DNA of 64,000 nt, taken from contig NZ_CP084628.1 of NCBI RefSeq assembly GCF_022878925.1, forward strand, positions 1-64,000, given 5' to 3'. Positions 12,412 through 43,414 of this stretch are shown here, in pieces; position 1 is the first letter of the stretch, and each line of letters opens with the position of its first letter. A program made the translations under genes and the position numbers. Origin of the DNA: Caballeronia sp. TF1N1 (GTDB taxonomy: Bacteria; Pseudomonadota; Gammaproteobacteria; Burkholderiales; Burkholderiaceae). The notes beneath the pieces are model-generated. The model had not been told where the DNA came from and made no database searches. It saw nothing but the letters and a program-made list of their open reading frames with translations.

Positions 12412-12421
12412 GCGCGGGCAT
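12397..12421. terminator. Bidirectional hairpin between pppA and tssC
   Basis: A perfect 9-bp stem, ATGCCCGCG (12397-12405) and CGCGGGCAT (12413-12421), with a 7-nt loop. It overlaps the pppA stop and lies 20 nt past the tssC stop on the other strand. No long T run follows in either direction, so it is a likely but not classical terminator for two convergent operons. Confidence 0.6.
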
Positions 12422-12441
12422 CGTCGTGAACAACTGCGAGA

Positions 12442-13947: not shown

Positions 13948-14013
13948 GATCGTTTCCTTGGTCGTTCCTTGGTCGTTCCCTGAGATCCTGCGTTCAGGGC
14001 CTGGTCGTGCGGG

Positions 14014-14541: not shown

Positions 14542-14612
14542 GACGCCTCCCTCCATCGCTTGAATGCGGGCTACGTTTGAAGACGATTGAGCGCCGGCGG
14601 AATTAAAAGCGC

Positions 14613-15863
14613 TTACGCCGCTGTCCGCAGAAGCCGTTCTTGACGCCGTGAGGGCGCGGCGCAATTGAAGAGCGCGCGGCCGGGCTCGATGAGACACAAA
14701 TGCCGCGCGGCCGCCATGCGCTGCCGTTGATAACCGTCCTTCAACACGCCGATGCATTGCGTCTTCGCAGGCGCCGCGCCGCAGAGATGCCGCTCGCCTT
14801 CCCGGAAGCGCGGCGCATTCGCTTGCCACCATTGGGCGATCTTGTCGGCATCGGGCCAGGGCGCGCCTTCGTCTTCGTCCATCGCGACGCCGGTATCGGC
14901 GGGATCGTCGGCCGGGTTGGCCGGAAGCGCTTGCGGCGGCTCGCGGTCGAGATCGAGCCGCGCGAGGTCGGCGCCGGTAATGAAGCTGAAGCTCTCGCCG
15001 GCAAGCTGCGCGAGCCTGTCGTCGGACATGTGGCCGATGAGCCACGGAATGTAGTGCGGATCGCCCGCGTGGCCCATGGTGCGGATCAGGAGACGCTTGT
15101 CCGGTTGACGCGCGGCGATGGCTTCGAGCAGCGGATGCACGTGCGGCGACGGCAGCGCGCTCGCCGCGAGGGCCGCGGCTTCGGCATGCGCCGGCGCAAG
15201 CGCCTTGAGCGCGGCAAGCGACGCGCCACGGTCGCCAAGGAGCAGCGCGGCCCGGGCGGCCTGAAAACGGCAGGCGTCGTCAGCGTCATCCAGATGATCG
15301 ATGCATGCCGCAAGCAAATCGACCCGGCCGACTTCTCCCGCGCAACGCAGGCTGCGCTCGCGCAGTGTCGTGTCGTCCGAGGCGATGCACGCATCGAGGA
15401 AACGTTTCGGATCGGCGCGATGCAGCGCGCATGCGACGATGCCCGCACGTCGCACACCGGGGACGCCGCTGGCGAGCCACGTGCCGACTGTCTCTTGCAG
15501 GCGGCTCGCGGATACCCAGCCGAACGCCGAGTAAAGGCCGTGCGCCGCATGCGGCACGGCTTCGGCAAGCGCAATGAGCCGCAGAAGCGCTTTCTCCGCA
15601 CGTGCCTCGATGCAGCCGACCGCCACCGTGAAAAGCTCGCCGCACGCGGTTCGATCGAGCGCGCGCAAGCTCATCTGCGCGCCGACGCGTCCGGCTATCG
15701 CGATGCCATCGAGATGCGCCACGATGCGCTCGTCAAGGCGGGCGAGGTGCTTTAGCCTGACGTGCGGCGCGCGCACGAGCGACGTTCGGACGTTGCGAAG
15801 GCACGCGGCATCCTCGATATGTTGATCGAGGATCGGGAGAATGACGCGATTCTCGGCGCCCAT
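14613..15863 (-). CDS. TIGR02270-like HEAT-repeat T6SS accessory protein
   Basis: A 416-residue protein starting MGAENRVILPILDQHIEDAA and resembling the TIGR02270 family that recurs in proteobacterial T6SS loci. It consists of alanine/leucine-rich helical repeats of HEAT type over residues 60-320 (for example ACRFQAARAALLLGDRGAS, HYIPWLIGHM). The C-terminal segment has SFSFITGADLARLDLD and a W-rich DADKIAQWWQANAPRF motif. Its molecular role is unknown. The frame stays open upstream over the neighbouring gene, but that extension is arginine-rich shadow sequence, so the ATG 26 nt after the upstream stop is used. Confidence 0.8.
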   Translation of the reverse strand: MGAENRVILPILDQHIEDAACLRNVRTSLVRAPHVRLKHLARLDERIVAHLDGIAIAGRVGAQMSLRALDRTACGELFTVAVGCIEARAEKALLRLIALAEAVPHAAHGLYSAFGWVSASRLQETVGTWLASGVPGVRRAGIVACALHRADPKRFLDACIASDDTTLRERSLRCAGEVGRVDLLAACIDHLDDADDACRFQAARAALLLGDRGASLAALKALAPAHAEAAALAASALPSPHVHPLLEAIAARQPDKRLLIRTMGHAGDPHYIPWLIGHMSDDRLAQLAGESFSFITGADLARLDLDREPPQALPANPADDPADTGVAMDEDEGAPWPDADKIAQWWQANAPRFREGERHLCGAAPAKTQCIGVLKDGYQRQRMAAARHLCLIEPGRALFNCAAPSRRQERLLRTAA

Positions 15864-15889
15864 GTCGGTCAGGTACGGAAGTAAAAAAA

Positions 15890-16357
15890 TTAGTTGAGTT
15901 GCACCGAGCCGCCCTTGATGCGATTCACGCCCGAGGACCGGCTCGATACATACGTGCCGTTTATCAGCACTTTGCCGGCCTTCGTCAGTGTGATGCTCGC
16001 TTGCCCGCAACGCAGCACGATCTCTTCCTTCGCGACGACGACGAGTCGCCGGCCATCGGCATCGACCTCGACTTCGGCGGGAACGGTATCGAGCGGCCAC
16101 GCTTCGTCCGTCTGCAGGCAACCGATGATGATCGGCCGCGCCGGATCGTTGGCCTCGAACATCAGCAGAACCTCGCGTCCTATATGCATGCCGCGAACAT
16201 CGACGATGGTGCGCGCCGCGAGCGCGGCGTTGCCCGGCTGCCGCGGATAGACCACGAGCGGCCGCGCGCCATCGCCGGCAAAACCGATCAACTCGCCGAT
16301 GCACACGCCTTCAATGGCCGGCGACATCGCCGGTTCCAGGAAATCCCGTCCGCTCAT
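15890..16357 (-). CDS. DUF6484-like protein with VgrG-like OB fold and short needle
   Basis: A 155-residue protein beginning MSGRDFLEPA, with GGGGAGAG-like SD sequence just upstream of ATG 16357. The middle, GREVLLMFEANDPARPIIIG, closely parallels the gp5 OB-fold signature of the VgrG in this window (GQEVIVDFLEGDPDRPIITG). The C-terminus, ASITLTKAGKVLINGTYV, parallels the VgrG needle tail ASIVMKKDGTIQIKGKDI. It therefore looks like a miniature VgrG spike without the gp27 base. It lies between tssA and the TIGR02270-like gene. The DUF6484 assignment is from memory of T6SS loci. Confidence 0.75.
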   Translation of the reverse strand: MSGRDFLEPAMSPAIEGVCIGELIGFAGDGARPLVVYPRQPGNAALAARTIVDVRGMHIGREVLLMFEANDPARPIIIGCLQTDEAWPLDTVPAEVEVDADGRRLVVVAKEEIVLRCGQASITLTKAGKVLINGTYVSSRSSGVNRIKGGSVQLN

Positions 16358-16415
16358 CGCACTCTCCCCTGTCTGACCGACCAAAGACGAACGACGCCCG
16401 CGTAATTGCAAAGGC

Positions 16416-17438
16416 TCATTGCGGACGCGTCCCCGCGATCAGGTGGATGTGCGACAGGCTGTCGGGCGCAAGATCCTGCATCACGGCCATGAAGTCCTTG
16501 CCCAAGAGCCCGCGTGCGCGGCGGATCAAAAGCGGCGCCGGGTTGGTCGGCTCGGTGCGTTCGAGGAAGGCGCACACGGCATCGAGCAGTGCGATGGCAT
16601 CCTCGCGCGAGGCGAGCTCGCCGGGACGCGCCATCGCTCGATGCGGCGCGGGCGGAGAATCTTCGGGCATGGCGCCGGCTCCCGGCGAGGGCGCGTTCCG
16701 TGGCGCGGCGGCGCGGAATTGCGCGGCGATCTGACCGGCGGTTGCCGTCATCTGAATGAGCAACGGCGTGCGCTCGGCTCCGAGCCTGTCCGTCATGCAT
16801 GCACCGAGCGCCTGCACCGCACGCGGCAGATCGAGACCCTCGACGAGCAGCGCGGCGTTTTGCGCAAGCGCGTCGGCGAGCACGCCTTCGACGCGCGACA
16901 GCGTCTTCACGCCTGCGCCTTCGGGCGGCGCGAGCTTGCCTTGCGCCACGAGGATGTCGCGCACCGTAAGGCGCTCCCCATGCACGCGGCAGACCTCGGA
17001 CTCGCGCAAATCGTTGAGCAGCGTCTCGGCTTCGGCATACGGCGTGTAGGGATCGGCGAGCGGCGCGAGAGCATTGACGCGCAGCGCGGGATCGTTGCCC
17101 TCGTCGGCATCGAGCGGCGGATAAAGCGTGTCCCAGTAGCGCTCGAAAAGCCCCATCAGCAGACGCAACCCCGCATGAAAACCCGCCACGCCGTGCACAT
17201 GCGACGCCGCGCGCGTGTACACCACCGCGATGCGCAGATCCTTCGACCGCTCCAAAAGCGCCGTTGCCTGTTCGAGCACGTCGCCCCACGGCGGCGCTTC
17301 GGCGAGCGTGTCGAACTGGCGCGCCGGCATGCCTCGCGCGAGCGCCTCGAATTCGAGAAAGGCTGCGTCGTATTCCAGATCGATGCCGGCGGGCGGCATC
17401 GTCCGGGTTGGCGCGAGTAGCGGTTCGATGTCGATCAT
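16416..17438 (-). CDS. tssA: T6SS assembly protein TssA (ImpA type)
   Basis: A 340-residue TssA, which caps and coordinates tube and sheath polymerisation. The N-terminal ImpA domain is clear: PPAGIDLEYDAAFLEFEALA at about residues 15-35, then SKDLRIAVVYTRAASHVHG, and GLRLLMGLFERYWDTLYPPL around residue 90. The C-terminal helix set (NPAPLLIRRARGLLGKDFMA) is typical of the short TssA class. GGAG precedes the ATG at a proper distance. It starts only 18 nt after the TpsA stop, which argues strongly for co-transcription with the TPS genes. Confidence 0.94.
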   Translation of the reverse strand: MIDIEPLLAPTRTMPPAGIDLEYDAAFLEFEALARGMPARQFDTLAEAPPWGDVLEQATALLERSKDLRIAVVYTRAASHVHGVAGFHAGLRLLMGLFERYWDTLYPPLDADEGNDPALRVNALAPLADPYTPYAEAETLLNDLRESEVCRVHGERLTVRDILVAQGKLAPPEGAGVKTLSRVEGVLADALAQNAALLVEGLDLPRAVQALGACMTDRLGAERTPLLIQMTATAGQIAAQFRAAAPRNAPSPGAGAMPEDSPPAPHRAMARPGELASREDAIALLDAVCAFLERTEPTNPAPLLIRRARGLLGKDFMAVMQDLAPDSLSHIHLIAGTRPQ

Positions 17439-17456
17439 CGCGGCTCCGTTCTCATG

Positions 17457-20400
17457 TCAGAATTCTCCGCAGCCGTGCTGCCCATTCACGACGAGGCAGT
17501 TATTCAGGTTCGGCCGCGAGCGCACGCGCTTCCATTCGGAGGCGAGCGAATCGGCCGGACCTTCGGACTGCTGCAACGCGAGGACCGGTTCGTTGGTGCC
17601 CACGCAGACGTTGATCGCGCCGAGGTTGCTCTCGTAGACGAAACTGTCTTCCTGCGCGGTGAACAACGGTTGCAGGCCGGAGCGCGCAAAGACCGCGCCT
17701 TGCAGCGGCATCGACGGGTCGATGGTGAGCGTGCCGGGAATCACCACGACCTTGTAACCGTCAGGCGACGTGAAGGTGCCCGTGATCGCGTAGCTTCCCG
17801 GGCCGGAGTTCGTCGTCGCCGTCGATCCGGGCGGACCACCCGCGAGCGATTGACCTTGAGTGTCGCCGTTTTGCAGGCCCGCCACGGTGAATGTGAATGC
17901 CGGGTTGGACAGACCCTGAGGCCGCTTCTGGTTGCCGACATTGATCGTAAGCGTGGGCTGCTCGGCGTAGACGAAGTGATTGCCGTTGTCCGTCACGACT
18001 ACGTTCGACAACTGACCGTTCCAGCAATTGCCGCCATGGACGCAGCCATAGAAGTTGGGCCGCGCGCCGCCCGGTTCGATACCGCCGCGGGTTTCGTTGT
18101 CGCGATTCAGCGCCCACACGCGCCACGCGTTACCCGCGCTGATCGTGCCGCCGTTCGGGTTCTGAAACTGCGTGCCTTGCTGCACGAGATCGATGCTGCC
18201 GCTCGCCGTAAGATGCATCGGCGTGGCTGGCGTGCCAAGCGTGATGCCGCCGCTGTCGGCGATCACGGTGAGATCGCCGGTTGCCGTGCCCGGCTGGCCG
18301 CCGATCGGCGCGGCGTTGCCGCTTGCCGCATCGAAACCGGTGGCGCTGGCCGTGCCTATCGTCAAGGCGCCTGCATTGCGAAAGTTCACCGTGCCCGTCC
18401 CGGCGACGGCGAGCGTGTTCACGCTGTTGACATCCGGAAGGTTGAACACGCCGCCACCGGCAAGCAGCAGCGTGCCTGTCTGAATGCCGCCCGGATCGCT
18501 TGCCGTGCCATTCGTGTCGATGGCGAGCGTGGCGCTCAAAGGCATCGCAATGCCCGAGGGCAAGTCGACGCCCTGACTGCCCGCGCCCGGGTTCTGCAGC
18601 GTCAGGCTCGTCGCCACGAACGGCCGCGCCGCGCAATTCGTGCCGCCTGCGCACGGACCTTCGACGGTGATCTTCCCGGTCTGTGTGAGCGAGCCGAGCG
18701 CGAGCGTGCGGATGTTCGTCGAGAACGACTGGTACGTGGTGGCGTCGATCGACAAGCCCGGCGTTGCTGCCGTGCCGAACAGCGTGATCGGCATGCCGTT
18801 GCGCGGCGTGAGGGCGAAGCTCGTCGGATCGACCGATACCGGATAGATGCCGAGCGTCGCCGCCGAGATCGAACCCGGCGCGCCGCGCCCGATCAGACTG
18901 GTGGCGCTTGCGTCATTGGCCGAGCCGAGCACGACAGTGTCCGGTGCCGCGATGGTGAAGTTGCCGCCCGTCTCGCCCGTGGTGGCGATACCCACGCCCG
19001 CCGTCGCCGAGTTGCTGTAACCCGCGATCGCGACATTCCGGCCCGTAACCGAGCCGGAGCCGAGCAACACGCCATAACCGGTTGTGTTGGCGCTGCCGCG
19101 GATATCGGCAGTACCGTTCGTTGCCCGCACGGACGAGCCGTCAAGGACCGCGACGCCATTGTTGCCGCCGCCGCTCGCGCTGCCGAAGACCCGCACGGCA
19201 TGGCTGTCGCTGTCGCTTGCGGTGGAAACGAGTTGCGTCGATGCGGGCTGACGAGCGGGCGCGGTGCCTGCATTGCGCAATACGACGCCGCCGCCAGGAT
19301 CCGTTGCGGCGTTCAGGCTGCGTCCCGCCACTTCTATCTGTCCCGTGCCGCTAAAAATCCTGACGTCGTTCAGATCGACGCCGTAGGGCGTGATCGTATT
19401 CGGAAAGCTCGAACTGGCGAGCACTGCGGGCGTGGGCGCGATGCCGTGCAGCGTGACGTTGCCGCCGGCTCCGGATGCGCCGGTCGTGTCGATATCGACC
19501 GATTCCAGCATCGCCGACGCGCCGTCGTAGCCGCTCGCGCCACCGCCTTGCGTGCCCGCAACCAGCGACCCGCCGTTGGTCGCAAAGCGGATGCGGTACT
19601 CCGCCCCTTCCCCGGCATTGCCGAGCGCGATGATCGCGTTGCGCGCGTCTGCGGCGACGTCGAGCGCTCCCGCCGTCGATGTTATGTCGTTCTGCAGAAA
19701 CAGCAGGTTGTTCGCGTGCAGCCCGAGCGTCGATACACCCGTGGCGTTTTCGACGACGGGCGCCGTGACGTAGATCGTGCCCTTCCCGCCTTCGCCGCCG
19801 TCGAGCGTCTGCACATTCAGGTTGCCGAGCAGGGTTGCCTGCGCGCTTTCCAGAGGCGTGACTTTCGCGGACGCGGAATCGAACGTCTGCCCGGCTACGC
19901 CCGTGATGCGAAGATCGCCCTGGCTTACGAGCGTCACGTTGCCCGTTCCGGCGAGACCGAGTGAACCGACAAAGTTAGCCGGATTGGTGAAATTGAAGCT
20001 GCCCGGTCCGACGAGATTCAACTGCCCGACCTGAATGCCGGAGGCGCCTTGCGTCACGATTCCGGGCGTCTGCAGCGTGAGCGTATCGACGTTGATGAGC
20101 GATGCAAGAGCGATGCCCTTGCTGCCCGTGCCCCCGCTTGCGAGCGTCAACCCGTCGAGCTGGCCGGTTCCAAAGAAAGGCTGCGCAACGGTTACTAGAC
20201 CGCTATAGCTATTCGAACCGATTATGAGGTTCGACACCGCCGGCGCAATCGCACCGAGCATCGACTGCGTGACGCTGAAGCCCGCCGCCGTGCCGCCGAC
20301 GTTGATGGGCGTGAGGTTATCCGCGGCAATGTTGAATGAGCCGGCATCGAACTTGCCGGGCAGCATGACCACGGTTCCCGACGGCGCGTAGAAAGTGCTG

Positions 20401-23400
20401 GCCGGGGGCGCGGGCGCGTCGACGGCGGCGGTCACGGCATCGTCGCCACGTAGATTGACCGCCTCGTCCAACACGGGCGGACGCGTCGCGGCGACCGTCT
20501 GGATTTGCGCCACGATGGGTGGCGTCGTGCCGTTGTTGTCGGCGCGCAAAACCACCGTGCCGCCCGTGTCGAAGAAGCCCGGAAAGAGCGCGGGATCGCG
20601 TCCCGCCGACAGCGTCGAGTTGTAGAGCGCGATGCCTGCCTGGCTACTAGGCGTGTAACCGGTCACCGACACGGTCAACCCCGAACCTTGCGCGGTGATT
20701 CCGGCGTTATCGAGTTCGACGCCCGGATAAAGGTTGCCCGCAACCGCGAGTCCGTTGTTGTAGCCGCGAATATCGATCGGGCCGCCCACGCTGTGAATGT
20801 CGATGTCCTGCGTGATCGTGTACGGAAAACCGCCGTTCATCGCGACGCCCTGATACCCGTTGCCCGAACCGGAAATCTGTATGCCTCCCGCGCCGGCCGA
20901 GATGGCGGTTGGCGTGGTGCTGCCTGAAGTGATCGTAACGCCTGCGCCCGGTATGTAGCCCGACGCCGTGGTTCCCGTCATGCTGAGCGCATTGCCCGCA
21001 CTCAGTGTGGAACTATCGATGCCGACTCCGTCGCTCCTCCCGGCAAAGTCGCCGCTCATTGCCCGGGGCAGGCCCGGTGCGTTGCCGGTGATGAAGATGG
21101 AGCCGGTCTGCGTGGCAAGCGCGGCGCCGACGATGGACACGCCCGTACCGTCGAGCAAGTATCTGTCGGTGGTGTTGTTCACGTAAGGCGCCGTGCCCAC
21201 GATACTGATGTTCCCCGACTCCGACTGCGCGATCTGGCGCCCGAGATCCGGCTGTATTGATACACCCACGCCCGACACCGTGCTGAGTGCGGCCGGCACG
21301 ACGGCCGCCGCGCCGCTCACGCTGATGTTGCCCGAGACGGTCTTCAAAAGCGGCGTGGTCACGGTGCTCGCAGACGTCGGCGTGAGCGCTACACCCGTGG
21401 TGTTCAAGTTCGCGAAGTCATTCGCACGAGTGCCCACGGTGCCGTTGATGCCGATGTTCCCCGTCTGCGTGGCGATGCCCGACAAGCCGCCGATCGACAC
21501 GGCGAGTGGCGCCGCTTGCCCGGCTATCGAGACATCGCCCGTCGATGTGGCGATGGTCGAGTCGATCATGGTGAACGCGGCGAGCGGAGTCGCGTTCGGA
21601 GCAACGACTGCAGCGAGGGCGCTGGGAAGCGTCGGCGCGCCTTGTCCGTTGAGCGTCACCGAACCGCCGGACTGCGCGCCCGGCAATGCCACGGTCGTGT
21701 CGATTTTCGTGTTGTTGCCGATCACGACCGCCGCGCCGTCGAATTGGGTGGCGGCGGCAGGCGTGCCCGCCGCTGCCGCGGGCACGCCTGCGGTGAAATA
21801 ACCGCCGTTCGTGTCGATCACCGCGCGGTTGAGCACGATCCAGTTGGTCCCCGCCGCCGCTTTGCCCTGATTCGCATCGAGCACGACGTTCAGCGCGCCC
21901 ACGGGCGCGTCGCCTTCCGCGGACGGACCGCCGATGGTCCCCTCCACCGTGATCGATCCTGCGGCGCTGAGCGTCAGCGTGGCGGGCGTCGTGGTTCGGG
22001 TCTTGGCCAGACGGACGCCGTTTTCCACGATGATGGCGCCCGTGCCTCGCTCACTGAGATTGCCGGCATCGGTCGAGAGCGTCACCGATATGCCGCTGCC
22101 GAGCTTGTTGCTGATGTCGTCGTCGACCACGACGCTGTTTGAGGTCGGACTCGACGAAAACGTCGCCACGTTCGGATTGCTGGTGGTCGTGGTGGAGATG
22201 CTCGTCCCGCTGTTGACCGTGGTGCTGGGTGTGGTGCTGAGCGTGGCCGGAATGACCGTCAAATTGGTTGGGTCCAGCAACCATTCTCCGCCGCGCCCGA
22301 GCGCCGCGGTCGCATCGATCGTGGCGCCGTGGGTATCGAGATAGCCGCCCGAGGTTTCGATCAGGCCGCCGTTGCCGCCGTGCGCGCCGCCCTTGGCCGA
22401 CAACGTGCCGTAAATGCGCGCCGCTTCTGTCCCGTACATCACGATGTTGCCGCCGTCGCCGCTGACGAGCGCATCGGCGCCGACCTGCGCCGTGGGGCTC
22501 ATCCACACCGCATCCGCATTGCGGATATCCGCCGCCTTCCCCGCCGCGCCGCCGCCGACCCGCACGCGCCCGCCGCCTGCCGCGCCGTTCGCATCGACGC
22601 GCGCACCGTCGTTTACCGCGACACGAAAGCCCGTCACGTCGATGCCGCCGCCCTTCATACCCGCGCCGCCCGTTGCATCGACGGCGCCCGCGACCTCCGT
22701 CACGCCCGCCGCGCCGCCATCGAGCACGATGCGCCCGTTGCGTTCCGCCACGCTCCGCGCGCGCACCGTGCCGGTCTGATTGAGCACAGTCGCGGCGAGC
22801 GCGTCGGCGGTTTGCACGGACATCACCACTTGCCCGCCGTCCGCCTGCACTACGCCGGAATTGCTCACGAGCGCCTGTGCCGCCGCGCCGTCCACCTTCA
22901 GCATCGTGAGGCCGTCGCCAGCGAAGTCGAGCGTGATGTCGCTGCCCGCGCCCATCGCGACCGTGCCGAGCTTGGCGCTCACCACGCCGCTGTTATCGAC
23001 CTGCCCGCCCAGCAGCGCCACCGTTCCGCCCTCGCCTGCGGTAATCGCGCCTTGATTGACCACCTTGCCGCTCGCATTCGGCGAAGCGATGAAGTGATAC
23101 TTGCCCGCCAGAAAGTCACTGTCCGAAATGCCCAGTGTCGATGCCACCAGCGAGCCGACATTCACCGACGCCCCCTTCGCGAACAACACGCCCGCCGGAT
23201 TGACGAGAAACACCTGACCGTTGGCATTGAGCCGCCCGGCGATGGTGCTCGCATTGCTGCCGACGACGCGGTTCAGCAACACGGCCTGCGGCGACGGCTG
23301 CGTGATATTCACCGTCTCGTTGCCGCCGATCGAAAACGAATTCCAGTTGACGATGCCCTTTTGCGATCCTTGCGTGATCGCCATCGTACTGTTCGCAGGC

Positions 23401-23609
23401 GCGCCGATCGAGACGTTGCCGCTCACCACCTGAGCGCCTGTCGGAAACGCGAGCGCGCCGGGCGCCGCCACGAGCGCAATCAGCGGCAGCAGTGCCGCCG
23501 GACGCAGATCGATACCGGCATGACGCGCCGCGCGCCGCGCGAGCCGCCGGATCGCGCGCGCCCACGCCCGCCGGTCTCTGCGGGTCCGAAGGCTATGGAT
23601 ATCGCTCAT
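17457..23609 (-). CDS. Filamentous-haemagglutinin-like TpsA exoprotein
   Basis: A 2050-residue two-partner secretion exoprotein. ATG 23609 is chosen because GGGAGG lies just ahead of it. The signal peptide has a long basic N-region and is probably cut after ALA at about residue 54. The TPS/haemagglutination domain (about 55-300) contains NWNSFSIGG and NPAGVLFAKGASVNVGSLVA. A very long Gly/Thr/Asn/Val-rich beta-helix body follows. Near the C-terminus lies a YGCVHGGNCW motif, an MBG-type domain (about 1885-1965) and a tail with three cysteines ending GCGEF. No toxin domain is visible. The transporter gene is directly upstream and tssA starts 18 nt downstream. It is likely an adhesin or surface fibre. 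Confidence 0.9.
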   Translation of the reverse strand: MSDIHSLRTRRDRRAWARAIRRLARRAARHAGIDLRPAALLPLIALVAAPGALAFPTGAQVVSGNVSIGAPANSTMAITQGSQKGIVNWNSFSIGGNETVNITQPSPQAVLLNRVVGSNASTIAGRLNANGQVFLVNPAGVLFAKGASVNVGSLVASTLGISDSDFLAGKYHFIASPNASGKVVNQGAITAGEGGTVALLGGQVDNSGVVSAKLGTVAMGAGSDITLDFAGDGLTMLKVDGAAAQALVSNSGVVQADGGQVVMSVQTADALAATVLNQTGTVRARSVAERNGRIVLDGGAAGVTEVAGAVDATGGAGMKGGGIDVTGFRVAVNDGARVDANGAAGGGRVRVGGGAAGKAADIRNADAVWMSPTAQVGADALVSGDGGNIVMYGTEAARIYGTLSAKGGAHGGNGGLIETSGGYLDTHGATIDATAALGRGGEWLLDPTNLTVIPATLSTTPSTTVNSGTSISTTTTSNPNVATFSSSPTSNSVVVDDDISNKLGSGISVTLSTDAGNLSERGTGAIIVENGVRLAKTRTTTPATLTLSAAGSITVEGTIGGPSAEGDAPVGALNVVLDANQGKAAAGTNWIVLNRAVIDTNGGYFTAGVPAAAAGTPAAATQFDGAAVVIGNNTKIDTTVALPGAQSGGSVTLNGQGAPTLPSALAAVVAPNATPLAAFTMIDSTIATSTGDVSIAGQAAPLAVSIGGLSGIATQTGNIGINGTVGTRANDFANLNTTGVALTPTSASTVTTPLLKTVSGNISVSGAAAVVPAALSTVSGVGVSIQPDLGRQIAQSESGNISIVGTAPYVNNTTDRYLLDGTGVSIVGAALATQTGSIFITGNAPGLPRAMSGDFAGRSDGVGIDSSTLSAGNALSMTGTTASGYIPGAGVTITSGSTTPTAISAGAGGIQISGSGNGYQGVAMNGGFPYTITQDIDIHSVGGPIDIRGYNNGLAVAGNLYPGVELDNAGITAQGSGLTVSVTGYTPSSQAGIALYNSTLSAGRDPALFPGFFDTGGTVVLRADNNGTTPPIVAQIQTVAATRPPVLDEAVNLRGDDAVTAAVDAPAPPASTFYAPSGTVVMLPGKFDAGSFNIAADNLTPINVGGTAAGFSVTQSMLGAIAPAVSNLIIGSNSYSGLVTVAQPFFGTGQLDGLTLASGGTGSKGIALASLINVDTLTLQTPGIVTQGASGIQVGQLNLVGPGSFNFTNPANFVGSLGLAGTGNVTLVSQGDLRITGVAGQTFDSASAKVTPLESAQATLLGNLNVQTLDGGEGGKGTIYVTAPVVENATGVSTLGLHANNLLFLQNDITSTAGALDVAADARNAIIALGNAGEGAEYRIRFATNGGSLVAGTQGGGASGYDGASAMLESVDIDTTGASGAGGNVTLHGIAPTPAVLASSSFPNTITPYGVDLNDVRIFSGTGQIEVAGRSLNAATDPGGGVVLRNAGTAPARQPASTQLVSTASDSDSHAVRVFGSASGGGNNGVAVLDGSSVRATNGTADIRGSANTTGYGVLLGSGSVTGRNVAIAGYSNSATAGVGIATTGETGGNFTIAAPDTVVLGSANDASATSLIGRGAPGSISAATLGIYPVSVDPTSFALTPRNGMPITLFGTAATPGLSIDATTYQSFSTNIRTLALGSLTQTGKITVEGPCAGGTNCAARPFVATSLTLQNPGAGSQGVDLPSGIAMPLSATLAIDTNGTASDPGGIQTGTLLLAGGGVFNLPDVNSVNTLAVAGTGTVNFRNAGALTIGTASATGFDAASGNAAPIGGQPGTATGDLTVIADSGGITLGTPATPMHLTASGSIDLVQQGTQFQNPNGGTISAGNAWRVWALNRDNETRGGIEPGGARPNFYGCVHGGNCWNGQLSNVVVTDNGNHFVYAEQPTLTINVGNQKRPQGLSNPAFTFTVAGLQNGDTQGQSLAGGPPGSTATTNSGPGSYAITGTFTSPDGYKVVVIPGTLTIDPSMPLQGAVFARSGLQPLFTAQEDSFVYESNLGAINVCVGTNEPVLALQQSEGPADSLASEWKRVRSRPNLNNCLVVNGQHGCGEF

Positions 23610-23666
23610 GTCGACCTCCCTCATTGCTGCTGATTGCTGCATGGTTCGCTCGCGGCATCGCGCCGG

Positions 23667-25472
23667 CTAGAACGATTTGGAAACCTGCACGTACACGCGT
23701 GGCACCTTGTCGTCGCCGGTGGTGTCGGCGCGCGTGGTGCGCCACGCCACGCTCGCATCCACGGTGACGCCCCACGGCCCGTTCCAGAAAAGCCCAAGTC
23801 CCGCGCCGCTGCGCGTCACGGTGTTGGCGCCCTGGCCGGAAATGGAGCGCGCGTTGTAACGACCCACGCCGATATCGAAGAACGCGGACGCGGTGAGCGT
23901 CGGCAGCACGGCGTAGCGCAACGCGGCCGTGCCGATCAATCCTTCGTCGACCACCGATTCCGATGGCGAATAAGCCCGCACCGCACGCGGCCCGCCGAGC
24001 GTAATGCGCGACGAACTGTCGAGATTCTGATTCGCCCACTGCCCGGATACGCCCACGAAGAAACTCGTCTTCTGCGTGATCGCGTTCAGCCGGTTCGCCT
24101 GCATCGTCAGGCGCACGCTGTTGCCTTGCGTGTTGCGTCCGGCCGGTCCCTGATCGATGGCGGCCGCTACGCTCGAATCGATATTCAGATGCGCCAGCGC
24201 CAGTTGCACGTCCGCGCTGTTGAAGCCGCCGCCGAGAAACGCGTCGCGGCTTTCGTAGGAGAGTCCGACACTTGCCACATAGAGCTTCTGCGGGTTGTCG
24301 AAGCTCACGGTGTCGATCTTGTCGGTGAGCGAGCGATACTCGAACGCGCCGCGCAGCAACAGGTTCTGACTGCGCGAGCGGATCAGCGGATGCGTCACGG
24401 ACGCGGTCACCACGTCGGCGTCGCCGTGCGCATTGAGCGAGGAGAAGTTCTCGCCGAGGTAGTAGTACAGATGCGAATACGCGATGCCCGCGCGCGTGCC
24501 GTATGCATTCACCGGCGCGTCGTAGCCGACCCGGCCGTAGACCGTATCCGCCCGTTCGGCGGCAAGCAGATTCAAGTCGAGGTTGTCGCCAATGCCGAAT
24601 GGCGACGCGAGCCGCCCCACGGAGCCGAGCCGCCAGCGTCCGGCGGGTGCTGCGCCATAGTCATCGGCGGATACGGCGAAGTCCCAGCGCCGCGTGGGCT
24701 CGACGGTCACGGTCAGATCCACGGTGCCCGGCGCGCTGCCCGTCTCCAGCGCGGACGTGACGCGAATGCCCGGCAGATCGGACAGGAGCAGCATGGTGCG
24801 CTCCAGTTCGCCTTGCCTGAGCGGCTTGCCCGGTTCGATCGAAGCAAGCCGCGCGCGCACGAGCGATTCCTTGATCGGCGCGCCCGGCGCCATGGTCAGG
24901 CGAACGCGGCCGATCTTGCCTTCGAGCACGGTAAAGGTGACGTCGCCGCTCGTCACGTCCTGCGGCGGAATCACGACCTGTGCGAGCGGATAACCGCGAT
25001 CGCGATACGCCTGCGCAATGCGCGCGCTCATCGCGTTGAGATCGTTGATCGAGACTTCCTGGCCGATCTTCTCCGAGACGAGCGCGAGCAACGTGTCGGT
25101 CGACAGCGTCTCGTTGCCCGCGAAGCGGATATCGCGCAACACGAACTTCTTGCCCTCTGGCACGGCAGGCGGCGCGGCGGGCGGCGCGGGCAGCACGTTT
25201 GCGCCGCCCGGCGCGGGCGCACCCGGCGACGGACGCGGTTGTTGGTTGAGCAGCGTGCCGGCGTTCGGCGTCTGTTGCGTGCCTGCGTTCGGCAAGTTCG
25301 GTACGGCCGGCAGCTGTTGCGCCCAGGCCGGCAGCGCACTCGCGCAGGCGAGGCCCACGCCCGCCACGCGCGCCGCGCCGGACACACGCGCCGCGCCGGC
25401 GACGCTTCGTCCACGGCGTTTGGCTACGCGTGAACTCAATGCGAGGAATGTCGTTGTCATGGCGTGATTCAC
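23667..25472 (-). CDS. TpsB outer-membrane transporter (ShlB/FhaC/HecB family)
   Basis: A 601-residue Omp85-superfamily transporter that should export the TpsA encoded 57 nt downstream. A signal peptide ends at about ALPAWA (residue 51). A Pro-rich linker is followed by POTRA domains (KFVLRDIRFAGNETLSTDTL from about residue 108; a second up to about 270). The 16-strand barrel follows, with the GGPRAVRAY motif corresponding to the loop-6 VRGY signature. It ends in a terminal aromatic strand, RVYVQVSKSF. GTG 25472 is used because GAGGA lies upstream of it; ATG 25460 is an alternative. Confidence 0.92.
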   Translation of the reverse strand: MNHAMTTTFLALSSRVAKRRGRSVAGAARVSGAARVAGVGLACASALPAWAQQLPAVPNLPNAGTQQTPNAGTLLNQQPRPSPGAPAPGGANVLPAPPAAPPAVPEGKKFVLRDIRFAGNETLSTDTLLALVSEKIGQEVSINDLNAMSARIAQAYRDRGYPLAQVVIPPQDVTSGDVTFTVLEGKIGRVRLTMAPGAPIKESLVRARLASIEPGKPLRQGELERTMLLLSDLPGIRVTSALETGSAPGTVDLTVTVEPTRRWDFAVSADDYGAAPAGRWRLGSVGRLASPFGIGDNLDLNLLAAERADTVYGRVGYDAPVNAYGTRAGIAYSHLYYYLGENFSSLNAHGDADVVTASVTHPLIRSRSQNLLLRGAFEYRSLTDKIDTVSFDNPQKLYVASVGLSYESRDAFLGGGFNSADVQLALAHLNIDSSVAAAIDQGPAGRNTQGNSVRLTMQANRLNAITQKTSFFVGVSGQWANQNLDSSSRITLGGPRAVRAYSPSESVVDEGLIGTAALRYAVLPTLTASAFFDIGVGRYNARSISGQGANTVTRSGAGLGLFWNGPWGVTVDASVAWRTTRADTTGDDKVPRVYVQVSKSF

Positions 25473-25545
25473 TGCACCGTCCTCATCGGGACCGGCGACG
25501 GATCGGCGCCGGCTTCGTTTGCGTCATCGAAAGCGGACGCGCTGA

Positions 25546-27816
25546 TCAGCGGGCCACCGAAAGCCGCCAGTTGCCCATCAGATCGAACGGCGCCCAGTAA
25601 AACGGATGAGCGAACTTGCTGTTCGAAAGCACCGCGAGCTGCGCGTCGCGCATCGCGTCGATGGCTTCTTCGCCCTTGGTCAGCGCACCGTAGAACGTGC
25701 GCATGGTGAGCGCGGTCGAGTCGTCGGCGACCGGCCACATCGACACGAGCAAAGCCGACGCGCCCGCATAGAAGAACGCGCGCGTGAAGCCCATGATTTC
25801 GTCGCCGCGTTCGACGCGCCCGAGCGCCGTCTCACAGGCGGACAGCGTCACGAGCGCCACCGAATCGAACTTGAGGTTGTAGATGTCCTCGGCGAGCATG
25901 GGATCGGGCCCGTCGGCGGGCTGGGCCGCGGGCGCGAGCAGCACGCGCGAATGCAGCGGATCGATGGTGTCCGCCTGCGCGTGCGTCGCCACATGGACGA
26001 TGCGTCCTTCGGGCGCGTTGTCACTGAATGCCTTGCGCGTGACGTCGCCGCGCACGAAGGTCTCGTTCCTGGCGAACAACGGGCCGATCGCGCGGACTTC
26101 GGCTTCGGCGCCGGGCAGATCGAACTCGGGCGCAATACGCGGATTGCCGAAGGCGACCAGATTGCTCGCGATGCGCTGCTGCCGCCGCACGAGCTGCACC
26201 GCGACGCTTGCCGACGGCGCGAGCGCCAGCGCGTGCCGCTGGATCAGAAAGCCCTGCGCATTCCTGAGCGCCTGAAAGGGCATGTAGTGCAGCGCGCCGT
26301 TCGGCACGATGATGAGCCGCTCGTTCGGCCGCAAGTCGAGCGGCTGGATCAAGAGCGCGTCGAGCTTCGCGCCGTAAGTGAGCGCCTGCGGTCGTCCGCG
26401 GATGATCGCGTTGCGAAAGTCGGTCACGGCAAGCGTCATGTCGCGCCGTTTGATCGGCAGCGTGAAGCCCTGAAGACCGCCGGCGCGCACGACCCACGCG
26501 ATCATGCGATCCGGCAGTCCGTGAAATTCGACGATCGCCTCGCCAGGCTTGAGCGTGCCGCGCACCTCGTCGAGCGAGAGCGTGCGGCCGTTGAGCTGCG
26601 CCTCGTCGACATTCGATGCAAGCCGGTTGCGCACGACATCGAGCAGCGCGCGGCTGCGGCTCTTCTCCGAGAGCGTCCAGCCGAGCGAGTAGTCGCCGTC
26701 CTCGACGACGAGCGCAATCGTTTCCTCGAAAACCGTCTGAACGTCGGAGAACAAGCCGGTCTTGAACTCGTCGCTGCGAAAGCGCGCGCGGATCGATTCG
26801 GAATCGTCGAGCGCGGCGAGCCATGCATCGCGCGCCTCTTTTCGCTTGCCGAGCGCGAGATAAGCGCGGCCCATGCCTTCGTGCGCCCACAGGTTGTCGT
26901 AGCTCGCGTCCGAGCCGCTTTTCACGGCGCTGGCGGCGAACGCGTCCAGCGCGGCTTGCGGATTGTTTTCCGCGAGCAGCAGATTGCCTTCGATGCGCTT
27001 GCGCAAGGGCGCCAGCAACGAATCGGTCAGGCCGCTCGTCGCTTCGAAGGTCGCGCGCGCGCCGGGCGCGTCGCCGTTGGCAATCTGCGCGTTGGTGATC
27101 GACAGCAGCACGAGCGGCCGATAACGCGGCGACGCCGAATCGAGCGCCGCGTGATATTCGATGAGCGCGGCTTTCGCATCGCCGCGTCGCGCCGCGATAT
27201 CCCCGAGGACCTTGTGCGCCGGAGCGAGCACTTGCTGCGGATTTTTTTCGCCGGCGGCGATGGCTTCGCGCGCGTACTTTTCGGCATCGTCGAGATCGCC
27301 TGCGTAGCTGTAGGCAATCGCCAGATCGCGCCGCGAGAGCGCCGCGAGATTGGCGTTGTCGGTCTGACGCGCGACGACGAGCGCCCGTGACGCCGCCTCG
27401 ATGCTCTCGCGAAAATCGCCGCGCTCGGCCGCCGCGACGGACATGCTGCAGTAGGCGTAACCGTCGAGCTTGACCTGATCGCGCGCCAGCAAGAGCCGCC
27501 CTTCCTGCGTCAGCGTGGCGATGGTTTCGGCATCGCGCACGCGGGCTTCGGCCTGGCGTGCCGCGGGCGTGAGGGATTCGTCGGCGGTGCTCGCCGGCGC
27601 TTGCGGCGCTGTGGCGGATCTGTTTTGCGCCTTTAGCGGGATGGACGGCGCCTTTCGCTCCGGCATCGCTTGCACGTCTTGTGTGCTTTGCGCACGCAGG
27701 CATGGCGTCGTCAGAAGCAGTGTCATTGCCGCGCACAGCGCGCACATCGCGCCAGGCCGTTTCGTAGCACCGCGCTTAAGCGCAGCAGCGTCGGCCTCGA
27801 TGCGGGCCGACCACAT
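25546..27816 (-). CDS. Exported TPR-CHAT protease-like protein
   Basis: A 756-residue protein with a probable signal peptide (hydrophobic MCALCAAMTLLLTTPCLRA, ending about residue 42). A region of helical TPR-like repeats follows (about 80-400), then a C-terminal CHAT domain of the caspase/separase clan. The expected catalytic pair is present: His612 in HVATHAQAD and Cys661 in TLSACETALG. The gene is first in a minus-strand run CHAT-TpsB-TpsA-tssA and lies 73 nt before TpsB. CHAT-TPR genes beside TPS loci are known in cyanobacteria, from memory. Its substrate is unknown; TpsA is the obvious candidate. Earlier in-frame starts look like shadow sequence. Confidence 0.85.
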   Translation of the reverse strand: MWSARIEADAAALKRGATKRPGAMCALCAAMTLLLTTPCLRAQSTQDVQAMPERKAPSIPLKAQNRSATAPQAPASTADESLTPAARQAEARVRDAETIATLTQEGRLLLARDQVKLDGYAYCSMSVAAAERGDFRESIEAASRALVVARQTDNANLAALSRRDLAIAYSYAGDLDDAEKYAREAIAAGEKNPQQVLAPAHKVLGDIAARRGDAKAALIEYHAALDSASPRYRPLVLLSITNAQIANGDAPGARATFEATSGLTDSLLAPLRKRIEGNLLLAENNPQAALDAFAASAVKSGSDASYDNLWAHEGMGRAYLALGKRKEARDAWLAALDDSESIRARFRSDEFKTGLFSDVQTVFEETIALVVEDGDYSLGWTLSEKSRSRALLDVVRNRLASNVDEAQLNGRTLSLDEVRGTLKPGEAIVEFHGLPDRMIAWVVRAGGLQGFTLPIKRRDMTLAVTDFRNAIIRGRPQALTYGAKLDALLIQPLDLRPNERLIIVPNGALHYMPFQALRNAQGFLIQRHALALAPSASVAVQLVRRQQRIASNLVAFGNPRIAPEFDLPGAEAEVRAIGPLFARNETFVRGDVTRKAFSDNAPEGRIVHVATHAQADTIDPLHSRVLLAPAAQPADGPDPMLAEDIYNLKFDSVALVTLSACETALGRVERGDEIMGFTRAFFYAGASALLVSMWPVADDSTALTMRTFYGALTKGEEAIDAMRDAQLAVLSNSKFAHPFYWAPFDLMGNWRLSVAR

Positions 27817-28031
27817 CCGCTCTGTCGTTTCCACGAATGCGCTCCTCGATGACCATCGCCGCGCACCGGCGCAAGCGGTGTGGAGCCGCCGCGGTGCCAC
27901 GACAAGACGAAACGTCGCGGCGCATTTGAAAACACGCGGCGATGGTTCGTCTGCCGCTGTGTTGGCACTCACACACATTGGTCATGCCAGGCATCGAATC
28001 GATCACTGACGGCGAACGCTCACCGTGGCGG
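27817..28031. promoter_or_regulatory. Divergent region between CHAT-TPS-tssABC and tssJ operons
   Basis: These 215 nt separate the first gene of the minus-strand operon from tssJ on the plus strand, and should carry promoters for both. There are GC-rich dyads (GCGCACCGGCGCAAGCGG near 27860) but no convincing -35/-10 pair. A TGGCAC at 27963 lacks the matching TTGC needed for a sigma-54 promoter. Role is inferred from position only. Confidence 0.35.
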
Positions 28032-28541
28032 ATGCAGACGCGGTCGCGGCTCTGTGCGGCGCGCGTCGTCTTTCTGAGCGCGCTCTTCGTCGCTGCGTGC
28101 AAGTCGGCGCCGCCCGCGCCTCCGCCGCCGACCATCGTGCGCGTCAGCGTAAGCGCACTCCCAACCGCGAATCCCGATCACATGGGCCGGCCGTCTCCCG
28201 TGCTCGTGCGCGTGTACGAACTCAAGACGACCGCCGCCTTCGATAGCGCCGACTTCTTCACGCTCTACGGCAAGGATCAGGCGACGCTCGGCGGCGATCT
28301 CAACGCGAAGAACGAATTTCTGCTGAAGCCGGGCGACAGCCGCATCGTCGAGCAGCCCGTGCAGCCGGGCACGAAGTTCGTCGCGGTGGTGGCCGCGTAT
28401 CGCGACATAGAACGCTCGCGCTGGCGCTCGACCGTGCCGGTGCCGCCGAATCAGACGACGTTGATCGACGTGCGCATCGATGCAGCGGACGTGAGCATCG
28501 GCGCCAGCCGTGCGCCGCCGCCAAAAGCCGCCAGGGAGTAG
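28032..28541 (+). CDS. tssJ: T6SS outer-membrane lipoprotein TssJ
   Basis: A 169-residue lipoprotein that anchors the TssL-TssM membrane complex to the outer membrane. The start MQTRSRLCAARVVFL gives a compact signal peptide with lipobox LFVAAC, placing the acylated cysteine at residue 23. The mature part has the family's RVYELKTTAAFDSADFFTLY segment and LNAKNEFLLKPGDSR. It opens the plus-strand tssJKLM block. Two in-frame ATG/GTG codons further upstream would only add non-conserved residues. Confidence 0.92.
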   Translation: MQTRSRLCAARVVFLSALFVAACKSAPPAPPPPTIVRVSVSALPTANPDHMGRPSPVLVRVYELKTTAAFDSADFFTLYGKDQATLGGDLNAKNEFLLKPGDSRIVEQPVQPGTKFVAVVAAYRDIERSRWRSTVPVPPNQTTLIDVRIDAADVSIGASRAPPPKAARE

Positions 28542-28667
28542 CGGCGGCGCCGCATCGGCACTTGCAAATTCGAACGCGTCGTTCGTTCTAGAAGCGCAGC
28601 GCCTCGTGTGCGCGATCCACGCGCGATTCACACGGCGCCGCGTCGAACCCAGAGGCGGATACGAGCC

Positions 28668-30008
28668 ATGACCTGGCATCAACGCATGATCTGGTCCGAG
28701 GGACTGTTTCTCGAACCGCAGCATTTTCAGCAGCATGACCGCTTCATCGAGCATTTGGTGTGCTCGCATTTGCGCGCAACCGAAGCTTGGTCGTGGGGCT
28801 GGGCCGCCGTCATGCTCGACGAAGTCGCGCTCGGGCTCGGCAAGATCGCGCTCGCTTCCGCATTCGGCGTCTTGCCCGATGGCGCCGCGTTCTCGTTTCC
28901 CGACGATGCCGCCGCGCCTCCCCCGCTCGAAATCCCCGCAGGCACGCGCGACGAACTCGTGCTGCTCGCGTTACCTCTGGCCCGCGCGGGCGCGAAGGAG
29001 TTCGAAGCCGGCGGCCAGGCGGACGGCCAGGCCGACACGCTGCGCTACCGCACCGCCGACACCTCCGTCACCGATGTGACGACGAGCACCGACCGCATCG
29101 CGCAAATCCGCGTCGGCACGCCGAATTTGCGGCTCATGCTGGAGCGCGACGTCACCGGCGCCTTCGCGACCATTGCCGTGGCGCGAGTCCTCGAAAAGCG
29201 CGCGGACAATCGCGTGCTGCTCGACATGAGCTATATCCCGCCGATGCTCCACGCCCACGCCGATCCGCGTCTGCTCGGCCTGGCGCAAGAGCTTGCCGGC
29301 CTCTTGCATCAGCATGCCGACCGGCTTGCAAGCCATCTCGCCAATCCGGGGCGCGGCGGCGTTGCGGAGATCGCGGACTTTCTGTTGCTGCAGACGCTCA
29401 ACCGCTTCGAGCCGCAATACCTGCATCTATTGCAAGTGCCGCTGCTGCATCCCGAGCGTTTGTATCAGACGACGCTCGCGCTTGCGGGCGACCTCGCCGC
29501 CTTCGATGAACGGCGCCGCGTGCTCGCGTATCCGCCGTATCGGCACGACGATGTAGCCACTTCGTTCGAGCCGCTCATGCGCGACGTGCGCCAGCTTCTC
29601 GCCCAAGTGCGCGAGCCGGACGCGGTATCGATCGAATTGCAAAGCCGCAAGCCCGGCGTGCGCGTCGCGCTGATCAACGATCTCGAGCTCGTGCGCAGCG
29701 CGGGCTTCGTGCTGGCCGCCAATGCGCAGATGTCCGGCGAGGCGCTGCGCACGCGCTTTCCGACGCAGGTCAAGATCGCGCCCGCCGAAAAGCTGCGCGA
29801 TCTCGTCAATCTTGCGCTGCCGGGCATCGGCTTGCGCGCGATGTCGGTCGCGCCGCGGCAGATTCCGTTTCACGCCGGCTTCTCCTACTTCGAGCTGGAC
29901 CGCGGCGGCGAGCTATGGAAGGAGCTGGAGCAGACCGGCAATCTGGCCATGTATATCGCCGGCGAGTTTCCCGCGCTCGAGCTCGAGTTCTGGGCCATCC
30001 GTCACTGA
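28668..30008 (+). CDS. tssK: T6SS baseplate-membrane connector TssK
   Basis: A 446-residue TssK, which links the baseplate to the TssJLM membrane complex. It starts MTWHQRMIWSEGLFLEPQHF, the conserved TssK N-terminus, so ATG 28668 is preferred over the longer frame. Further family features are FLLLQTLNRFEPQYLHLLQV (about 240-260) and the C-terminal GELWKELEQTGNLAMYIAGE segment. It is followed by tssL after 9 nt. Confidence 0.95.
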   Translation: MTWHQRMIWSEGLFLEPQHFQQHDRFIEHLVCSHLRATEAWSWGWAAVMLDEVALGLGKIALASAFGVLPDGAAFSFPDDAAAPPPLEIPAGTRDELVLLALPLARAGAKEFEAGGQADGQADTLRYRTADTSVTDVTTSTDRIAQIRVGTPNLRLMLERDVTGAFATIAVARVLEKRADNRVLLDMSYIPPMLHAHADPRLLGLAQELAGLLHQHADRLASHLANPGRGGVAEIADFLLLQTLNRFEPQYLHLLQVPLLHPERLYQTTLALAGDLAAFDERRRVLAYPPYRHDDVATSFEPLMRDVRQLLAQVREPDAVSIELQSRKPGVRVALINDLELVRSAGFVLAANAQMSGEALRTRFPTQVKIAPAEKLRDLVNLALPGIGLRAMSVAPRQIPFHAGFSYFELDRGGELWKELEQTGNLAMYIAGEFPALELEFWAIRH

Positions 30009-30017
30009 GGCGCGGAC

Positions 30018-31331
30018 ATGACGAACGACGACGATCCCTTCGCCGGATTCGAATCCGATTCGACGATGATCAAACCCAATCCCGGCGCGCGCCGACGCGC
30101 CGGAAAAGGCGCGACGGAAAACCCGCACATGGCGGACGCAGCGGGAGGCGGCGACGCGCGCGCCATCGACGCCGCGTTCGCGCAAGGCGGCGCGGTTAAT
30201 CCGCTGGTCGCGGCTTGCGCGCCGCTTCTGCAACTCGCGCCGCGCATCCGCACGATGAGCGCTTGCGCCGACCCGGCCGCGTTGCGCGAGTCGCTCGCGG
30301 CCGGCGTGCGCCGCTTCGAGGCGCAAGCGCGCGCGAACGGCGTCGCGACGGAACAAGTGACGGCGGCGCGCTACATGGTCTGCACGATGCTCGACGAAGC
30401 CGCCTCCGGCACGCCTTGGGGCGCGGGCGTGTGGGCGCGTCAGAGTTTGCTCGTGACTTTTCATAACGAGGCATGGGGCGGCGAGAAGGTCTTTCAGTTG
30501 CTGGGGCGGTTGGCGCAAAAGCCCGCGTTGCATCTGCATCTGCTGGAACTCGCGAGCATGGTGCTGGCGCTCGGTTTCGAGGGACGTTATCGCGTCGCGG
30601 CGCAGGGCAAGCAGACGCTCGACGCAATCCGCGCGCGGCTCTATCAACTGATCCGCAAGGAACGCGGCGAACCGGAGCGCGCGCTGTCGCCGCATTGGGA
30701 AGGCGCACCGACCGCGCGCCGCCGCGCAACCGACGTGTTGCCGGTGTGGGTGGCCGGCGCCTTCGCGCTGCTGGTGCTCGCCAGCGCCTATTTGGCGATG
30801 AGCTTTCGCCTCGGCCAGTTGTCCGATCCGGCGTTCGACACGCTGGCATCGATCCGCGCGGGCGTGCAGCGGCCGTTCGTCGTGCAGCAGGCGGCGAAAC
30901 CGCGTCTCGCGGAGTTTCTCGCATCCGAGATTCGCGACGGCCTGGTATCGGTCGACGATCGGGTCGACCGTTCCGTCGTCACGCTGCATGGCGATAATGT
31001 TTTCAAGCCCGGCAGCGCGGAAGTATCCGCGCAAGTGCGCCCGCTGATCGACCGGATCGCGCAGGCGCTCAAGGCCGTGCCGGGCAACGTGTTGGTGACG
31101 GGCCATACCGACGACCGGCCGATCCGCTCGGCGCGTTTTCCGTCGAACTGGGAGCTGTCGCAGGAACGCGCCGCGAATGTGCGCGACTTGCTCGCGTCGA
31201 GCTTGCCGCCTGCGCGCCTCAAGGCCGAAGGCAAGGGAGACGCCGACCCGGTCGCGCCCAACGACTCGCCCGCCGGACGCGCGCAGAATCGCCGCGTCGA
31301 AGTGGTGCTGTTCGCCAGGCCGGGCGCGTGA
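30018..31331 (+). CDS. tssL: T6SS inner-membrane protein TssL with OmpA-like domain
   Basis: A 437-residue DotU/TssL. The cytoplasmic helical domain covers about residues 55-225 (NPLVAACAPLLQLAPRIR, MLDEAASGTPWG, SLLVTFHNEAWGGEKVF). A single transmembrane helix lies at about 244-264 (VWVAGAFALLVLASAYLAM). A periplasmic OmpA/MotB-type peptidoglycan-binding domain lies at about 320-430 (VTGHTDDRPI, SQERAANV, QNRRVEVVLF). It forms the T6SS membrane complex with TssM and TssJ. The fused domain lets this system bind cell wall without a separate TagL. It overlaps the tssM start. Confidence 0.95.
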   Translation: MTNDDDPFAGFESDSTMIKPNPGARRRAGKGATENPHMADAAGGGDARAIDAAFAQGGAVNPLVAACAPLLQLAPRIRTMSACADPAALRESLAAGVRRFEAQARANGVATEQVTAARYMVCTMLDEAASGTPWGAGVWARQSLLVTFHNEAWGGEKVFQLLGRLAQKPALHLHLLELASMVLALGFEGRYRVAAQGKQTLDAIRARLYQLIRKERGEPERALSPHWEGAPTARRRATDVLPVWVAGAFALLVLASAYLAMSFRLGQLSDPAFDTLASIRAGVQRPFVVQQAAKPRLAEFLASEIRDGLVSVDDRVDRSVVTLHGDNVFKPGSAEVSAQVRPLIDRIAQALKAVPGNVLVTGHTDDRPIRSARFPSNWELSQERAANVRDLLASSLPPARLKAEGKGDADPVAPNDSPAGRAQNRRVEVVLFARPGA

Positions 31332-37586: not shown

Positions 37587-37663
37587 TGCACAGCGCATCG
37601 CCTGCATGGGGATGCGTATCGCAAAGGCAAGACGCTAGCGCGCAAGCAGTGCGAGGACACACC

Positions 37664-43403: not shown

Positions 43404-43414
43404 GGAGGGGACTT

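Follow-up and report, generated by a model that had tools for sequence, protein, structure and literature searches.

The window (the whole stretch of DNA analysed here, 64,000 nucleotides long) carries on its minus strand a row of genes in the order CHAT, tpsB, tpsA, tssA, DUF6484, TIGR02270, tssB and tssC, as recognized from open reading frames (ORFs) and family profiles. The gaps CHAT-tpsB (73 nt), tpsB-tpsA (57 nt) and tpsA-tssA (18 nt) were read directly from the sequence, and the remaining ones down to tssC (58, 26, 71 and 66 nt) were taken from ORF coordinates; the order, strand and spacing which the initial annotation had given for this row were confirmed in all three respects by ORFs, profiles and sequence. 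We will refer to CHAT, tpsB and tpsA together as “the trio”. The row and its immediate surroundings comprise:

25546..27834, minus strand: gene of a TPR-CHAT cysteine protease (PF12770, 216 bits, plus TPR repeats; likely start GTG 27834, with the frame open to ATG 27978)
23667..25472, minus strand: tpsB, outer-membrane pore of two-partner secretion (POTRA_2, 7e-21; ShlB, 4e-21)
17457..23642, minus strand: tpsA, a large predicted exported fibre (PF05860, the TPS domain, 6e-36; PF18676, MBG_2, 2e-11); start at ATG 23642 or 23609
17457..17699, minus strand: C-terminal tail of TpsA, its last 80 residues, with three invariant Cys and the motif EWKRVRSRPNLNNC
17439..17456, minus strand: the 18-nt tpsA-tssA gap, likely holding the tssA ribosome-binding site (from the sequence)
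16416..17438, minus strand: tssA (TIGR03363, 173 bits)
15890..16357, minus strand: DUF6484 protein (PF20093), in a variable cargo slot between tssA and tssB
14613..15863, minus strand: TIGR02270 family protein (269 bits), in the same cargo slot
14014..14541, minus strand: tssB, small sheath subunit (TIGR03358)
12442..13947, minus strand: tssC, large sheath subunit (TIGR03355, 730 bits)
27835..28031, no strand: intergenic region between the divergent CHAT and tssJ, where gene directions lead one to expect a promoter region
28032..34963, plus strand: tssJ, tssK, tssL and tssM, divergent from the trio (TIGR03352, TIGR03353, DotU/TssL long form, TssM TIGR03348)

One flank of the row holds VgrG, an Hcp-like protein (56.3 bits against a cut-off of 58.9), TssE, TssF, TssG, ClpV, TagH-FHA and PP2C, and the other tssJ, K, L and M, TagF, a Ser/Thr kinase with DUF4384 and an MltA protein, the T6SS complement tssA-C, E-H and J-M forming one cluster in the window. 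TpsA bears the TPS domain (PF05860) and adjoins a TpsB with POTRA and a ShlB/FhaC barrel, the features by which a type Vb system is recognized. The slot between tssA and tssB (14542-16415) is a variable cargo site, occupied here by DUF6484 and TIGR02270; in C. grimmiae it holds DUF6484, DUF2169, two unnamed proteins, a PAAR-like protein and TIGR02270, and in Caballeronia sp. M1242 no gene is listed there. Next to the T6SS kinase, a plus-strand gene (37583-39634) joins MltA and 3D domains, of peptidoglycan-lytic type, in one protein; an MltA gene adjoins the kinase in M1242 too, and homologues lie near the trio in loci L092 and L101. The kinase itself (35082-37586, plus strand) has its best local matches, 65-75%, at the second-lineage trio loci described below; at most other fetched T6SS loci the best match reaches 28-34%, none was found in L114, L120 and L124, and in L118 and L123, both without the trio in the fetched stretch, it reaches 52-53%. 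Further along the same strand (43334-45952) lies a gene whose 872-residue product consists largely of TPR repeats; a histidine kinase gene is close by (40513-42288).

The likely CHAT start, GTG 27834, has GGAG upstream, and its frame is kept in many relatives. The catalytic pair is intact: the initial annotation had named His612 and Cys661, which is correct with a start at ATG 27816, and these residues, His666 and Cys715 when numbered from ATG 27978, are invariant in 27/27 loci and also in the 23 rows of a further alignment, three of them only about 30% identical. A signal peptide had been proposed for this protein as well, and a hydrophobic segment with an AxA-like site after it, hence a signal-peptide-like start, was found in 27/27 CHAT proteins by a loose heuristic without control (two of the loci, L069 and L010, being one species). 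The AlphaFold2 model consists of TPR helices and a CHAT domain, with a mean pLDDT of 73 and low confidence after the catalytic Cys, and its top solved fold matches are the Craspase TPR-CHAT protein, DdvA and separase. Csx29 of Craspase is the best one, equally made of TPR and CHAT (8d9f, E 8e-16, TM-score by target 0.49); it is a CRISPR effector partner, whereas the protein studied here has a signal-peptide-like start, and the NCBIfam Csx29 model gives it 16 bits against a cut-off of 300. DdvA (8rot) shares the TPR-CHAT fold, with a sequence match over the CHAT part at E 1e-9, and is titled a transmembrane anti-sigma factor, whereas no sigma-factor part is among the Pfam matches here. On the other hand, PF06035, the LapG family, was not found on the CHAT protein (Pfam, E 0.01), and LapG itself was discarded as the release protease considered below, since the genome holds no LapG-family gene at E 0.01 in a search with a positive control in Caulobacter.

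TpsA is laid out as a TPS domain, a variable shaft, an MBG_2 domain and a cysteine tail. Mean identity to the window protein, over 19 relatives and leaving out the distant loci L020, L022 and L025, is 61.5% for residues 1-100, 73-79% for 101-400, 51.5% for 401-500, 26-44% for the shaft (501-1600; 12 to 19 relatives per block), 52-65% for 1601-2000 and 85.5% for the last 80 residues; for comparison, the average identity to the window is 80% for CHAT and TpsB and 85% for TssK. Within this strongly conserved tail, Cys residues occupy positions -49, -13 and -4, counted from the end, in 23/23 proteins. When the last 232 residues were used as query, the full tail motif ended 105 of the 120 homologues listed out of 355 matches, Lysobacter, Luteimonas and Variovorax proteins being among the tail-bearing ones; a looser pattern was found in 109 of the same 120, representing 83 distinct tails, and E-W-x-(R/K) precedes V-R in 106 of these 109 (R in 77). 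For the last 83 residues, AlphaFold2 yielded a pLDDT below 50 and hence no confident structure, and no solved relative of the C-terminal 267 residues was found at E 0.1. Additional Cys pairs about six residues apart, near -195/-189 and -398/-392, are kept in many relatives.

Conserved cysteines near the C-terminus are what hook-anchored adhesins such as HMW1 and CdrA display, and TpsA has them. We infer that the cysteine tail resembles a protease-controlled anchor; neither the tail nor the LapG-CdrA precedent was mentioned in the initial annotation. The number of tail Cys is odd, which we count against a hook, and the conserved tail could serve TpsB binding only. A large two-partner exoprotein beside a weapon system also brings to mind a CdiA-like toxin of contact-dependent inhibition. 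To this idea we give almost no credence: the VENN motif is absent from 23/23 TpsA proteins, no toxin domain was found with Pfam at E 0.01, the C-terminus is conserved instead of polymorphic, and the 18 nt before tssA offer no room for an immunity gene at that place.

The trio recurs at the T6SS of related bacteria. A scan of genome contigs with the CHAT protein returned 38 loci, 24 of them Burkholderiaceae by name, and in 24/24 of the latter tssJ-K-L lies divergently upstream of CHAT and tpsB comes next. As to the question whether related Burkholderiaceae share the CHAT-tpsB-tpsA-tssA order, tssA follows tpsA in all 20 loci long enough to tell, L002, L008, L011 and L018 stopping at contig ends, and the order is also found in two annotated megaplasmids, one from the same species as L010. 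In a genus sample of 58 genomes, several of which are of the same species as the 24 loci and thus not independent of them, TssK is at least 80% identical in 19, and CHAT (the gene covered by this count) lies on the same contig in 19/19. CHAT was detected at E 1e-20 or better in 22/58, with T6SS genes beside it in all 22; the three genomes beyond the 19 are two with TssK 53% identical, plus G219 (L081), and here too the T6SS adjoins CHAT. In the 36 genus genomes without CHAT, TssK is either at most 50% identical or not detected at the threshold. A recent chance insertion is ruled out by the order in 24/24 loci and the 19/19 linkage, and the initial proposal that the trio belongs to the T6SS locus holds on the recurring order, this linkage and the second T6SS lineage described below. 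The association of trio and T6SS is, at the level of sequence comparison, well supported, and the gene order within it is fixed.

The short distance between TpsA and tssA, noted from the outset as 18 nt, can be read directly and is shared by most of the loci measured. Among 27 loci, 23 gave a tpsA-tssA gap, the other four ending before tssA, and in 20 of the 23 it measures 9-18 nt and an ATG stands where tssA should start; in L020, L022 and L025 the extrapolated gap is 60-98 nt and no start codon is found there, the start being uncertain. A consensus scan of 12000-29000, whose totals were close to the shuffled expectation, listed neither a promoter nor a terminator candidate within the 18-nt gap, and no sigma-70-like site in the divergent region 27835..28031. 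Because of the gap of 9-18 nt in 20/23 loci, the trio is probably transcribed jointly with tssABC.

Beyond the genus, a tight pairing of protease and tail emerges. The CHAT profile matches 20 of 200 family genomes, and the 13 best matches (at least 213 bits) are exactly the 13/200 genomes with the TpsA tail, the remaining seven CHAT-domain genomes being without it. Of these 13 genomes, 11 have tail and CHAT on a single contig; in the other two, G030 and G146, CHAT stands at the end of its contig and the tail is found on a different one. The TPS domain was found in 157/200 family genomes and the tail in 13/200, so that the tail is not a general feature of TpsA proteins. It was found in none of the other 299 genomes sampled from the order and none of 368 from the class, a sampling which misses some carriers, as the named Lysobacter, Luteimonas and Variovorax proteins bear the tail.

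This pairing bears on two further explanations for CHAT. It might serve export: in the periplasm, the TPR superhelix would bind TpsA that is still unfolded, and the protease part would clear stalled or misfolded chains or trim the N-terminus. The large TPR region with CHAT at its end and the co-occurrence of CHAT and tail-bearing TpsA in the same 13 genomes suit such a role, as does the degradation of TpsA precursors in the periplasm (DegP) when export fails, according to the available part of the literature; we nevertheless regard it as unlikely, since it does not account for conservation being highest in the very C-terminal tail of TpsA. CHAT might instead act on an envelope part of the T6SS or on a kinase pathway, with TpsA as a contact-sensing regulator and contact as the trigger of firing. 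The locus does hold a DUF4384 Ser/Thr kinase, a PP2C phosphatase, an FHA protein and TagF, the second-lineage trio stands divergently beside the kinase, and the anti-sigma title of DdvA, another TPR-CHAT fold match, would accord with a regulatory function. The exact coincidence of CHAT and the TpsA tail across genomes makes TpsA the foremost candidate for the substrate, however, and we consider this regulatory reading quite improbable.

The second T6SS lineage is represented in the family by G177 and G034 (TssK 50% and 49% identical, respectively), where the trio stands at a T6SS in another gene order, divergent from the kinase gene. In G177 and in the Paraburkholderia plasmid locus L101, the trio is followed by an opposite-direction PP2C and then, 2.3-3.6 kb on, by tssA, and in G034 (L106) TssM-L-K are on the trio contig, about 7.5-14 kb off. 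An apparent stand-alone trio at the Trinickia-like locus L093, with urease-type and other non-T6SS genes downstream, was dismissed, TssM-L-K lying on its other side on the same contig. A TssK tree was built from 45 rows, five duplicates having been dropped and L101 having no TssK in the fetched stretch; rows L002, L008 and L018 were labelled as trio though they end within tpsB, and the 17 rows labelled “none” lack any trio gene over the 20 kb fetched, while some of these genomes carry the trio at another T6SS. On this tree the trio label needs two changes, forced by well-supported branches; it fits two gains and a single old association with later losses equally well. The CHAT and TpsB trees present the same main split without strong support, and the CHAT row P0224, taken as outgroup, fell within the second lineage.

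These loci also bear on the simpler explanation that the adhesin module only shares the T6SS promoter or regulon, with no mechanistic tie to firing or killing. A two-partner system is able to work alone, and the spacing in the second lineage is in favour of a loose connection: the trio is about 2.3-3.6 kb from tssA with opposite-direction genes between (L101, L092), and in G034 no tss gene was seen closer to it than 7.5 kb. Yet the linkage survives both rearrangement and TssK divergence to about 50% identity, and the short gap to tssA is kept in 20 of the 23 measured loci, so that mere co-regulation seems to us rather unlikely.

More distant CHAT relatives, at about 26-43% identity, are mostly found without a TPS neighbour. 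No TPS gene was detected with window-derived queries at 14/14 low-identity CHAT loci, five of them under 8 kb, and a TpsB-like gene is present in three of 14 further CHAT loci (L082-L091, L095, L096, L099, L100). It adjoins CHAT in L099 and is about 3-4 kb off in L090 and L100, possibly as separate TPS-CHAT pairings at the level of the order. Furthermore, the trio is not the general context of CHAT, since four cyanobacterial and Azospirillum TPR-CHAT plasmid loci, out of 198 matching records, have no annotated TPS gene beside it. CHAT by itself does not imply an adhesin role, as its distant relatives mostly lack a TPS neighbour and 7 of the 20 CHAT-domain family genomes are without the tail.

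Our preferred reading, to which we assign a probability of about 0.45, is that of a two-partner adhesin with a CHAT protease of its own operon, which would cut the cysteine tail and release the fibre, the whole being probably expressed with tssABC. Its model is CdrA of P. aeruginosa, described in the available parts of the literature as a TPS adhesin with MBG2 domains whose C-terminal cysteine hook sits in the pore, and whose C-terminal tail is cut by the periplasmic cysteine protease LapG, which frees CdrA; the C-termini of HMW1, HxuA and CdrA are described there as disulfide or cysteine anchors. The MBG_2 domain, the cysteine tail and the predicted exported cysteine protease match the parts of the CdrA system, and for this reason CHAT is proposed to cut the tail. 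The suggestion of the initial annotation that CHAT may act on TpsA gains indirect support from their occurrence in the same 13/200 genomes and from the likeness of the tail to a protease-controlled anchor; cleavage of TpsA, like any killing role, including the initially suggested one in which TpsA would keep target cells within reach of the T6SS, is our inference.

According to this adhesin-release reading, CHAT, tpsB and tpsA would constitute a three-part two-partner-secretion operon joined to the tssA-tssC operon. TpsB would export TpsA, whose tail would stay behind on the periplasmic side and, as a disulfide hook, block the TpsB pore and keep the fibre attached to the cell; CHAT, exported through Sec, would cut the tail and free the fibre. 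Cutting after Arg is known from separase, whose site is ExxR, and from several caspase-clan enzymes. The candidate cut lies after the R/K of E-W-x-(R/K)-V-R, 22 residues from the end, and would remove Cys -13 and -4 with the last 22 residues. As the trio is probably transcribed with tssABC, adhesin and release enzyme would be made when the T6SS is armed, and attachment and detachment would accompany firing.

Compared with described systems, the locus combines known elements in a different manner, the literature being quoted here from the parts available. It is like CdrA-CdrB/LapG in its large MBG2-type TpsA with C-terminal Cys, hook and release being predictions here; unlike LapG, a transglutaminase-like cysteine proteinase under LapD/c-di-GMP control, the protease is of the TPR-CHAT type, lies in the operon and is tied to the T6SS. 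HMW1A-HMW1B-HMW1C and HxuA-HxuB of Haemophilus influenzae are likewise two-partner operons with a C-terminal-Cys tail, HMW1 having a third partner too, but HMW1C is a cytoplasmic glycosyltransferase, whereas the third partner here is a predicted exported protease. FhaB of the Bordetella FhaB-FhaC/SphB1 system is a TpsA matured by proteases, as is proposed here; SphB1, however, is a subtilisin autotransporter encoded elsewhere, while CHAT is in the same row as tpsBA. As far as the available part of one review goes, maturation-protease genes apparently lie outside TPS operons (PMC5422565), and the predicted exported protease heading this TPS row is contrary to the pattern stated there. CHAT genes also occur in a T6SS locus in the V2 region of Bacteroides fragilis, where they are proposed to encode immunity proteins, and two-partner secretion genes are not mentioned in the available part of that paper (PMC11854122). 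In the open-licence literature, no paper was found that joins a CHAT domain with two-partner secretion or hemagglutinin, and no mention of a T6SS-linked TPS operon was met in the parts available. The locus would thus represent a variant of two-partner secretion tied to a T6SS.

T6SS killing requires close contact with the target and, to our knowledge, little is known on how attackers hold their targets and leave them. The fixed row of adhesin, pore, protease and sheath genes makes this question of holding and leaving accessible to simple deletions and, if the adhesin-release reading is true, a TPR-CHAT protease working outside the cytoplasm would have a candidate substrate in the tail. A bolder version, which we regard as a long shot, would make the trio a contact switch of the T6SS: TpsA would grip a neighbour, binding or tension would expose the tail to CHAT, and its cleavage would release the fibre and at the same time trigger firing by way of the kinase and phosphatase of the locus; if true, a contractile weapon would have an adhesin-protease module for its sighting and release. 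Broadly, the gripping, releasing and stabbing of a neighbour may be coordinated in these bacteria.
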